Shown here in pieces: positions 2,105-50,727 of a stretch of DNA of 64,000 nt. The stretch lies in assembly GCA_951813575.1 (NCBI GenBank), contig OX638375.1, forward strand, positions 434,001 through 498,000. Direction: 5' to 3'. This DNA comes from Candidatus Binatia bacterium. GTDB taxonomy: Bacteria > Desulfobacterota > Binatia > UBA9968 > JAJDTQ01. The position numbers and the translations under genes were made by a program. The notes beneath the pieces were generated by a model. It searched no databases and was not told the DNA's origin. It was given only the letters and a program-made list of their open reading frames with translations. Position 1 is the first letter of the stretch, and the number at the start of each line of letters is the position of its first letter.

Positions 2105-2539
2105 ATGAACGCGATTTTTCAAACCGAGCCGAATCTGGCTTTCGTCGTCCTGCGCCTGGGTCTGGCCGTCACCTTCTTCGCCCATGGCTCCCAGCATCTG
2201 CTGGGCTGGTTCGGCGGAAGGGGTCCCAAGGGGCAGGTCAGCAACTGGAAAGAGAAGTACCACATCCCCATCTGGATCGGGGTGATCGGAGTCGCTACGG
2301 AAGCCCTCGCCGTGCCCGCCATGCTGCTGGGCTTTCTGACCCGCCCCCTGGCCCTGGGGCTGGTGATCTTCACGGCGGTAGCCCTCTACAAGGGCCATTG
2401 GGAGTTCGGATTCTTCGTGTCGGGCGGCGGCCGCAAGGGCAGCGGCATCGAGTACTGCCTGGCGTTGTTCCTGATGGCGCTGGCGCTGCTGGTGGGCGGC
2501 GGCGGCGCGTTCTCCATCGACCACATGCTCAGCCGCTAG
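2105..2539 (+). CDS. DoxX family membrane protein
   Basis: A 144-residue integral membrane protein of the DoxX family with about four hydrophobic segments. The opening (LAFVVLRLGLAVTFFAHGSQHLLGWFGG) has the family's conserved helix with histidine and glycine-rich turn. A second conserved stretch (EALAVPAMLLGFLTRPLAL) follows. DoxX proteins are linked to redox or thiosulfate/quinone chemistry in a few organisms, but most members are uncharacterised. It ends the amidohydrolase/hydrolase gene set. Its TAG stop codon lies inside the CTAG that begins the palindromic repeat at 2536. Confidence 0.8.
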   Translation: MNAIFQTEPNLAFVVLRLGLAVTFFAHGSQHLLGWFGGRGPKGQVSNWKEKYHIPIWIGVIGVATEALAVPAMLLGFLTRPLALGLVIFTAVALYKGHWEFGFFVSGGGRKGSGIEYCLALFLMALALLVGGGGAFSIDHMLSR

Positions 2540-2700
2540 TGTGGTGTCTGGTTAATTCGCGTCATAATATGCGGAGGATTTTTTGTCGTCGGCAAGGCGC
2601 GATGACGAGCAGTGGCGGGCACCACGCGAGGAAGAGCAACGCAGCCGACGGCGAAAAAGACCCGCAGGTTATGATGCGAATTAACCAGACACCACACTAG
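2536..2700 (+). repeat. Palindromic CTAG-ended repeat, copy A
   Basis: A 165-bp inverted-repeat element bounded by CTAG at both ends. The outer arms begin CTAGTGTGGTGTCTGG and pair perfectly over 25 bp, then over TCATAA after one mismatch. Inside is a core of roughly 100 bp shared with copies B (12215) and C (50563), but in the opposite orientation. The core has its own inverted repeat (TTTTTTGTCGTCGGC against GCCGACGGCGAAAAA) and a small GTGG/CCAC hairpin at its centre. The element sits between convergent genes and its left CTAG supplies the DoxX stop codon. It encodes no transposase and looks like a non-autonomous MITE-like or REPIN-like element. Confidence 0.85.
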
Positions 2701-12214: not shown

Positions 12215-12378
12215 CTAGTGTCCTGTCCCACGCAATTCTTTACCGATCTGCTGGTCTTTCTCGTCGTCGGCTGCGTTGCTCTTCCTCGCGTGGTGTCCGC
12301 CACTGCTCGTCATCGCGCCTTGCCGACAACAAGAAATCCTGCGCATCTCGGTAAAGAAATACATGGGACAGGACACTA
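12215..12378 (-). repeat. Palindromic CTAG-ended repeat, copy B
   Basis: A 164-bp copy of the element seen at 2536 and 50563, in the same orientation as copy C. The outer arms begin (C)TAGTGTCCTGTCCCA. They pair internally through TTCTTTACCGA with a few mismatches, although most of this arm sequence differs from copy A. The core is about 96 % identical to copy C by eye. The right end reads ACACTA and continues directly into a second partial arm. The element lies in the 5' leader of the MFS gene, between it and the end of the upstream amidohydrolase gene. Confidence 0.85.
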
Positions 12379-12414
12379 TGTCCTGTCCGGTTCATTCGTA
12401 CGGCAGGCCACTAG
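12379..12414. repeat. Partial second repeat arm abutting copy B
   Basis: This 36-bp piece starts TGTCCTGTCC, an exact inversion of the end of copy B. The two form a 10-bp perfect hairpin around CTA at 12366-12388. It continues GGTTCATTCG, resembling the copy A arm (GGTTAATTCG), and ends in CACTAG, whose CTAG gives the TAG stop of the amidohydrolase gene on the minus strand. It looks like the remnant of a second element joined to copy B with its core deleted. Confidence 0.4.
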
Positions 12415-13538
12415 TCCAGGGAATAGTAGGCGGCGCAGTTGTCCCAAAGGATCTTGTGCTTGTCTTCCTCGCTGATGGTGGAGAGCTCCAGGAAGCTTTC
12501 CACCGCGTGGGGAAACTTGGAATCCCCGTGGGGGTAGTCGGTGGAGAACACGATGCGCTCGTTCCCCATGTAGTCGATGACGTACTTGACCGGGGCCTCG
12601 TCCGGCTCCACCGACACGAAGCATTGTCTCTTGAAGTAGTCGCTCGGCGCCATGGTCAGATCCGGAGACCACACGTCCGCCTCTCTTACGTATCCCTCGT
12701 CCATACGCCAGAGCAGCCACGGGAGCCAACCGCAGTTGGCCTCCAGAAAGGCCACCCGCAGGTTCGGATGACGGGCCAGAACCCCGCCCGAGCAGATGCT
12801 GCCCAGAGCCAGCATCTGTTCCACCGGTTGTGCGAACACGCGCCGGAGCATGAAGTTGGGCTCGAACTGATCACCCACCTGACGTGCGCCGGAGGAAGAG
12901 GATTCGTGGAGGCCCAGGGGCATGCCGAGCTCTTCGAGCGCGGTCCACAGCGGTTCGTAGTAGTCGTCGTGGAAGTTGCGGCCGTTCACCGGGTTGGAAC
13001 GCATGAAGATGCCGCGGAAACCGAGTTCCCGAGCGCACCTTCGAGTCTCGGCCACGGCCTCGTCCACGTCGAAGGGGGAGAGCATTCCCGCCCCCAGCAA
13101 GCGGACCGGGTCGGCGCGGCAGAAATCGTAGAGCCAGTTGTTGTACGCCCGCGCCAGCGCGGCGGCGAAACGGGGCTCCATATCCGGCTCGCTGAGCGCC
13201 TGAAGCCCCCGCGTGGGGTAAAGCACGGCGACGTCGATACCCTCGATGTCCATGGCCTCCAGTTGGACCTCCGGCATCCAGCCCCGTGCGGCGTGGGCGC
13301 CGTAGATGCCCTGGTTCTTCTCGAAGTTGTGCCCCTTCGTGACGTTGCCGGCATGCACCTGGGGCAACCCCCACAAGCGGCCATCGGGATGCTGCATGCG
13401 CAGGTCACGGACGTTCTCGCTGGTCACGCCGCGCGGCGCCAAGGACTTGAACTCCGGCTCCAGATACCTCTCCCACAAGTCCGGCGGTTCCATGATGTGC
13501 ATGTCGCTGTCGAGTATCCTGTATCCGTTCTTGGCCAT
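12411..13538 (-). CDS. Amidohydrolase family 2 (metal-dependent TIM-barrel hydrolase)
   Basis: A 375-residue protein of the Amidohydro_2 group, which includes decarboxylases such as ACMS decarboxylase and gamma-resorcylate decarboxylase. The N-terminus has DSDMHIMEPPDLW, where DMH replaces the usual HxH first ligand pair, a common variant in this subgroup. A middle histidine lies in LGLHESS, and the C-terminal FSTDYPHGDSKFP has the metal/catalytic aspartate and histidine. Such proteins are abundant in environmental lineages; most have unknown substrates, probably aromatic acids. It lies 19 bp downstream of the DUF423 gene. Its TAG stop lies within a CTAG of the repeat remnant. Confidence 0.85.
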   Translation of the reverse strand: MAKNGYRILDSDMHIMEPPDLWERYLEPEFKSLAPRGVTSENVRDLRMQHPDGRLWGLPQVHAGNVTKGHNFEKNQGIYGAHAARGWMPEVQLEAMDIEGIDVAVLYPTRGLQALSEPDMEPRFAAALARAYNNWLYDFCRADPVRLLGAGMLSPFDVDEAVAETRRCARELGFRGIFMRSNPVNGRNFHDDYYEPLWTALEELGMPLGLHESSSSGARQVGDQFEPNFMLRRVFAQPVEQMLALGSICSGGVLARHPNLRVAFLEANCGWLPWLLWRMDEGYVREADVWSPDLTMAPSDYFKRQCFVSVEPDEAPVKYVIDYMGNERIVFSTDYPHGDSKFPHAVESFLELSTISEEDKHKILWDNCAAYYSLD

Positions 13539-50562: not shown

Positions 50563-50727
50563 CTAGTGTCGTGTCCCACGTAAATGTTGACAAATCTGCT
50601 GGTCTTTTTCGTCGTCGGCTGCGTTGCTCTTCCTCGCGTGGTAACCGCCACTGCTCGTCATCGCGCCTTGCCGACAACAAAAAATCCTGCGCATCTTTGT
50701 CAACATTTACGTGGGACACGACACTAG
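50563..50727 (-). repeat. Palindromic CTAG-ended repeat, copy C
   Basis: A 165-bp copy with CTAG at both ends. The outer arms begin CTAGTGTCGTGTCCCACG and pair perfectly over about 35 bp, including AAATGTTGACAAA, which is not found in copies A or B. The core differs from copy B at about 4 of 102 positions. The core also holds the inner arms TTTTTCGTCGTCGGC and GCCGACAACAAAAAA and the GTGG/CCAC central hairpin. The right CTAG supplies the mutM stop codon. It lies between convergent genes and could also serve as a bidirectional terminator. Confidence 0.87.

Follow-up and report, generated by a model that had tools for sequence, protein, structure and literature searches.

The question raised by this locus, a 64,000-nucleotide stretch of a Candidatus Binatia genome (the window), is how the ends of a repeat can differ between copies and pair within each copy around an inside that stays the same. 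Such a combination of conserved inside and variable ends is the opposite of the usual MITE pattern. The elements described here are very probably MITEs mobilised by IS630 transposases, carrying a core of Correia type and the ends of several IS630 lineages. Each element would be a non-autonomous transposon of the IS630/Tc1 type, immobile alone, whose arms would serve IS630 transposases, acting in trans, as terminal inverted repeats. Insertion occurs at CTAG with duplication of TA, and around a single conserved core the copies would bear ends from different IS630 lineages.

Three copies in the window

Copy A occupies positions 2536..2700 on the minus strand (arm type ...TGGTTAATTCGCATCATAA), copy B positions 12215..12379 on the plus strand (...CCCACGCAATTCTTTACCGA) and copy C positions 50563..50727 on the plus strand (...CCCACGTAAATGTTGACAAA); copy A is thus inverted relative to B and C. 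The plus strand of copy C is that of the core as aligned, and the presumed RNA would correspond to the opposite strand. The three elements of about 165 bp proposed in a first-pass annotation of this DNA are all present as full elements of 165 bp, with a single correction to the end of copy B, which lies at 12379 and not at 12378. The annotation also described a core shared at high identity and arms that are unlike between copies. Both descriptions agree with the measured numbers of identical bases, which are 94/103 (A/B), 95/103 (A/C) and 99/103 (B/C) in the core (element positions 32-134, 91-96% with A re-oriented), and 3/18, 3/18 and 12/18, respectively, in the arm interiors (14-31). Arm pairing, said to be perfect in C and almost so in A, extends over 32 and 31 of positions 1-32, and over 28 in copy B, which has four mismatched positions.

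The left arm of copy C (50563..50594, plus strand) consists of the CTAG target and an IS630-like terminal repeat, and all 32 of its bases pair with the right arm (50696..50727, minus strand), its reverse complement; the TA duplication at this copy is read from the empty sites of other copies. The structured core of copy C (50593..50697, minus strand) is a Correia-type hairpin with the internal loop CAAGGCGCGA/GCAACGCAG. Using R3, the third of our covariance models of the core (R1 served for a search of the phylum and R2 for one of Pseudomonadota), it is recovered with 90.2 bits (E=2.3e-23), and the cores of copy A (2566..2670, plus strand) and copy B (12245..12349, minus strand) with 90.8 bits (E=1.5e-23) and 84.6 bits (E=9.2e-22); E-values from these home-made models are rough here and throughout. 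The predicted fold of copy C has an energy of -88 kcal/mol (z -13.8). The tip pattern has seven matches within the window, compared with 0.7 expected, and 100 occurrences genome-wide, compared with none for a reversed control. Elements with pairing arms are therefore present in the window far above chance expectation.

The genome (4,210,610 bases in one contig) yields 75 BLAST matches to copy C, reverse and partial ones included. About 46 copies in this 4.2-Mb genome are full length, the window's three among them, and about five are truncated. An arm-A-like fragment (TGTCCTGTCCGGTTCATTCG) adjoins copy B at positions 12380-12422, and the site of copy B has probably been hit more than once. In a relative, the target site of copy C is where a truncated element with another arm (L204, G001:C1:2913500-2913950) ends. 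We considered this locus as a case of in-place arm change at an orthologous site and rejected it, as it is the only one to share the site, is truncated and may represent an independent insertion.

Variable arms and paired changes

Among 117 full-length copies from the genus, the tips (1-13) have a mean pairwise diversity of 0.14 and the core one of 0.06-0.12, compared with 0.54 for the arm interiors (14-31, 135-152). Interior arm positions are paired in 93% of cases, compared with 46% when mates are shuffled. The first-pass annotation had suggested that compensatory changes be looked for in the arms, and these are abundant in a set of 33 copies picked for unlike arms: standard pairs occupy 95.5% of cells, both partners have changed in 25 of 31 pairs, and covariation scores 0.679, compared with 0.171 for shuffled arms (0/500 shuffles) and at most 0.103 for slid ones. 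The arms are thus copy-specific around a conserved core and change jointly, as had been proposed.

Comparison of close copies shows that many of these changes come in pairs. In 48 disjoint pairs of close copies, double changes in the arms were paired in 35 cases and unpaired in one, alongside 81 one-sided arm changes and 138 differences in the core. If mutations were independent, the 81 one-sided changes in 3072 sites would lead one to expect about one double change, a third of which (about 0.4) would be paired. The copies L008 and L009, and likewise L150 and L151, differ by one paired arm change and have identical cores. One-sided changes look like decay after insertion. The pattern of paired changes, together with the fact that replication template switching can create, repair and maintain hairpins (PMC8794818), makes copying from arm to arm likely. 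A perfect hairpin would let template switching write a change from one arm into its partner in a single event, and pairing would also persist because both ends must suit the same transposase. The series of symmetric arm changes may thus be regarded as a natural record of hairpin-templated mutation.

The first-pass annotation had offered two sources for the arms, copying from one another or from the target, and the two fare differently. Copying between arms fits the paired changes among near-identical copies, while a target origin is at odds with the empty sites examined in relatives, from which arm sequence is absent. Its statement that the two arms of a copy still pair holds for the Binatia copies (the 93% above) but not as an obligation, since elements of other genera may have two unlike arms, comparable to the unlike left and right end of a single IS630, and two chimeric copies, described below, occur in one genome. 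These observations bear on the alternative that the hairpin itself is selected, either as RNA or as cruciform DNA, through independent compensatory mutations and with IS630 irrelevant beyond the tips. Selection of this kind would account for the strong covariation of the arms and for the G.U-type asymmetry in them that is described below. We nevertheless consider it unlikely, because paired double changes between near-identical copies are too frequent for two independent hits, because the elements of other genera have unlike arms, and because the arm interiors match IS630 ends.

A structured core shared with Correia elements

The alignments show the core as a hairpin whose stem covaries around a conserved internal loop, CAAGGCG/GCAACGC. 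In an alignment made from sequence only, the blocks CAAGGCGCGA and GCAACGCAG are opposed in the stem, their flanks covary, and 18 of 23 stem pairs have changed on both sides (0/500 shuffles); as the structure was derived from the same sequences, the shuffles somewhat overstate this result, and slid controls (0.08-0.15, compared with 0.567) are fairer. When 45 sequences are aligned, compensatory change is seen in 20 of 23 pairs (score 0.697 versus 0.174). Searching the genome and its relatives with a model of the core, as the first-pass annotation had advised, recovered it in 26 of 395 genomes of the phylum (R1) and in 79 of 399 Pseudomonadota genomes (R2), several of which have nine scored copies. 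Outside the core, the flanking arms vary from genus to genus. All nine sampled genomes of the genus have the element, and a DNA-level search of 11 sampled genomes from other genera of the order found it in none. The occurrence of a Correia-type core in about a fifth of the sampled Pseudomonadota species and in Binatia makes this a widespread family and no local curiosity.

The family had gone unrecognised in the first-pass annotation, and no Rfam covariance model matches the element; a match to sRNA-Xcc1 just over threshold (L304:166-251) falls outside the element and has nothing to do with it. The core is, however, homologous to that of the Correia element. In 33 kb of Neisseria gonorrhoeae, R3 finds a full-length match of 109 bp (L352:13127-13235, 38.0 bits, E=1.5e-8) that spans the TATAGTGGATTAA end, CAAGGCG, GCAACGC and then the other end, which is the short Correia form. 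The same copy is found by R2 with E=9.4e-5 and a second Correia copy with E=1.4e-4, whereas the best R3 match in 46 kb of Escherichia coli, used as a control, reaches only E=1.6. No Correia sequence had been deliberately included in R2 or R3.

Descriptions of Correia elements go back to the 1980s. The CREE/NEMIS of Neisseria and the Binatia elements have in common the core hairpin with the internal loop CAAGGCG/GCAACGC and TA at the ends, and CREE likewise have inverted-repeat ends in symmetric variants (PMC2649163). The Binatia elements differ in that their arms begin with CTAGTGTNNTGTC and lack the 26-bp TATAGTGGATTAA... inverted repeats, in that many arm types surround one core, and in that they occur outside Neisseria. 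Judged by sequence, they share the CREE core without being CREE in the strict sense, and we do not file them as CREE because the ends differ. In the open-licence literature, Correia repeats are reported only from Neisseria (PMC2649163, PMC5039591), so that an earlier report from elsewhere is possible. Their mobilising mechanism is described as undetermined in the same papers, and they have been listed among IS630-derived elements (PMC2817692). The ERIC/IRU of enterobacteria are also small with TA at their termini (PMC2229807), and their motif GAGCGAACGCAGCC, which faces CAAGCG, looks by eye like the internal loop. ERIC is at most a possible relative, its similarity to the core being non-significant (9.9 bits, E=3.3 with R2, in the correct place and strand; no match with R3).

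Read on the strand CAAGGCG...GCAACGC, 84 cells of the core pairs hold G.U and 14 hold A.C, a count taken from an alignment that was itself fitted to a model of that strand and, for that reason, not proof by itself. The arms are asymmetric in the same sense (48 versus 14 position-by-cluster events), and core changes in general have no wobble bias (35/300 versus 38/276). These counts favour selection on a transcribed RNA of the strand CAAGGCG...GCAACGC, and any function of the core would probably lie at the RNA level. In this reading the core is a Correia-type hairpin, not derived from the IS630s with matching ends and kept across phyla, most likely as RNA transcribed from the strand 5'-...CAAGGCGCGA...GCAACGCAG.... 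The binding and cleavage of CREE transcripts by RNase III (PMC2649163) would be the obvious parallel for such an RNA. An apparent bias in gene orientation relative to the presumed RNA strand (39 genes reading into it versus 17) was set aside, as the calling of open reading frames was crude.

Target sites and IS630 ends

Empty sites in relatives contain a single CTAG (L002 compared with L197 and L202; L005 with L200) or CTAT/TTAG (L014 compared with L194, L003 with L195), and filled sites have the same four bases at both element ends. Since the outer C/G of CTAG occasionally varies among filled sites, the duplication is TA, with CTAG as its preferred context. Duplication of a TA target is characteristic of IS630-type MITEs, and ISY100, of the IS630 family, likewise inserts at TA and duplicates it (PMC2170065). 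Genes that end in the TAG of the element seemed to be in excess, which had suggested insertion exactly at stop codons. We dropped this idea because the neighbour of copy C has its own conserved TGA upstream and the element supplies TAG in one of three frames.

The first-pass annotation had advised looking for a transposase that shares the ends, and IS630 transposons with this property occur in the genus and across phyla. L128, from the genus-mate G005, is a complete IS630 of 1149 bp (DDE_3 E=1.4e-23, with HTH domains) whose ends are CTAGTGTCCCGTCCCATTTAATAATTGACAA and CTAGTGTCCTGTCCCATATAATTCTTTACAA (matching end ...CCTGTCCCATATAATTCTTTACAA); contig JAJDXX010000180.1 (L214) is the one that carries the IS630 of this genus-mate. 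The HTH domains recall the ISY100 transposase, in which such domains bind ends of about 24 bp (PMC2170065). Two further IS630s of the genus have matching ends: L131 (G001) and L129 (G008), the latter with ends TAGTGTTGCGTTTCC and adjoining a copy of the element. IS630s are scarce in the genus (eight hits in nine genomes), which speaks against the IS630 reading. IS630s of other phyla whose transposases are related to that of L128 show the same layout of ends (Acidobacteria TAGTGTCCTGTCTCAGATAATTCTTTAC, Marinobacter TAGTGTTTCGTCCGGTTAATTCGC, Streptomyces TAGTGTTGCGTGTTTGAAGTAG, Acidithrix TAGTGTCCCCTCTCATAATTTCCC), and a Marinobacter IS630 end (CGGTTAATTCGC) resembles arm A. Elsewhere in the phylum, elements have TAGTACCCTGTAAC arms (L282, L291, L292); the IS630 L309 (TAGTACCTTGTAAC), from the same genus as one of them, has their tip, with an interior match of only p=0.07.

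We compared arms with a library of IS630 ends, excluding the first 12 bases (the tip) and using shuffled arms as control. Six of the ten Binatia arm groups match (A, p=0.019; B, 0.001; C, 0.001; D, 0.004; E, 0.012; F, 0.009), and groups G, H, I and J and the sub-variants D2 and E2 have no significant match in this library. The elements thus have ends in common with autonomous IS630s, as expected of IS630-type MITEs, with four of ten arm groups unmatched. The matches to IS630s of the same genus name a candidate mobiliser that can be tested. We also considered whether arms C and B are the left and right end of one IS630, for which the sequence letters were indecisive. The IS630s L100 and L101 of the genome that holds the window, an inverted pair about 2 kb apart (genome 1548364 and 1550678), were our first mobiliser candidates and were rejected, their ends (TATAGTGACATT) being unlike the arms; their tip TATAGTG is that of Correia ends.

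The core was not found in any IS630 examined; the sole match, in L129, is the neighbouring element. The autonomous IS630s of the genus, about 1.15 kb long, thus lack it, and the elements are not simple internal deletions of them. Ordinary internal-deletion MITEs, with one IS630 source per arm type and a core shared by gene conversion within the genome, are therefore a very improbable explanation, although IS630-derived MITEs are common (PMC2817692). Exchange through the core may indeed occur: two reciprocal chimeras in G005 (L107:463-627 and L114:1501-1665) have one arm each of two types, on short metagenome contigs where mis-assembly through the repeat would look identical. The single-contig genome has no chimera among its listed copies. 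Compensatory conservation of the core across phyla, however, goes beyond conversion in a single genome. The long hairpin, the intergenic position and the multiple copies would also suit a REP/REPIN-like element that a Y1 (RAYT) transposase moves via a single-stranded intermediate in hairpin form. This reading can be practically dismissed, since Y1 elements are not known to produce a TA duplication on insertion, the empty sites reveal insertion at CTAG with repeated TA, and the ends correspond to those of DDE-type IS630s.

IS630-mobilised MITEs with a Correia-type core thus remain the favoured explanation. A new arm type could arise in two steps, by recombination through the core and subsequent copying from arm to arm. 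More broadly, we give even chances to a history in which an ancient structured RNA/DNA module, hitherto known only as the Correia core, is a cross-phylum passenger that has repeatedly swapped its terminal repeats to follow new IS630s, with arms entering by recombination in the core and made symmetric by hairpin template switching, and with the RNA core providing a selective advantage. One passenger would then appear to ride many transposon engines across bacterial phyla. The RUP of Streptococcus pneumoniae is comparable in its TA duplication, its ends shared with an IS630 and its length of about 100-200 bp (PMC2229807); RUP is tied to one IS630 and the Binatia core to several, the RUP core itself being outside this comparison. 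The elements behave like other IS630 MITEs; the novelty lies in the range of the core, in its independence of the ends and in the symmetry with which the arms evolve.

Variant forms of the element are also present. Length variants of 187, 210 and 255 bp (L008:1501-1687, L017:1501-1710 and L099, genome 1690056-1690310) carry a GC-rich hairpin (CCCCGGGCTTGACCCGGGG and longer forms) at one insertion point in the core, a second small repeat nested inside the first; copies of this kind are themselves multicopy. About 25 solitary TAGTGTNNTGTC tips have no partner within 400 bp (for example at genome 318186, 1083518, 2504491, 2750869 and 3547598). Palindromes of 25-48 bp at genome 1675435-1675474, 2239986-2240024, 3455951-3455975, 3612690-3612735 and 1886282-1886329 consist of two arm ends without a core and are perhaps remnants of deletion.
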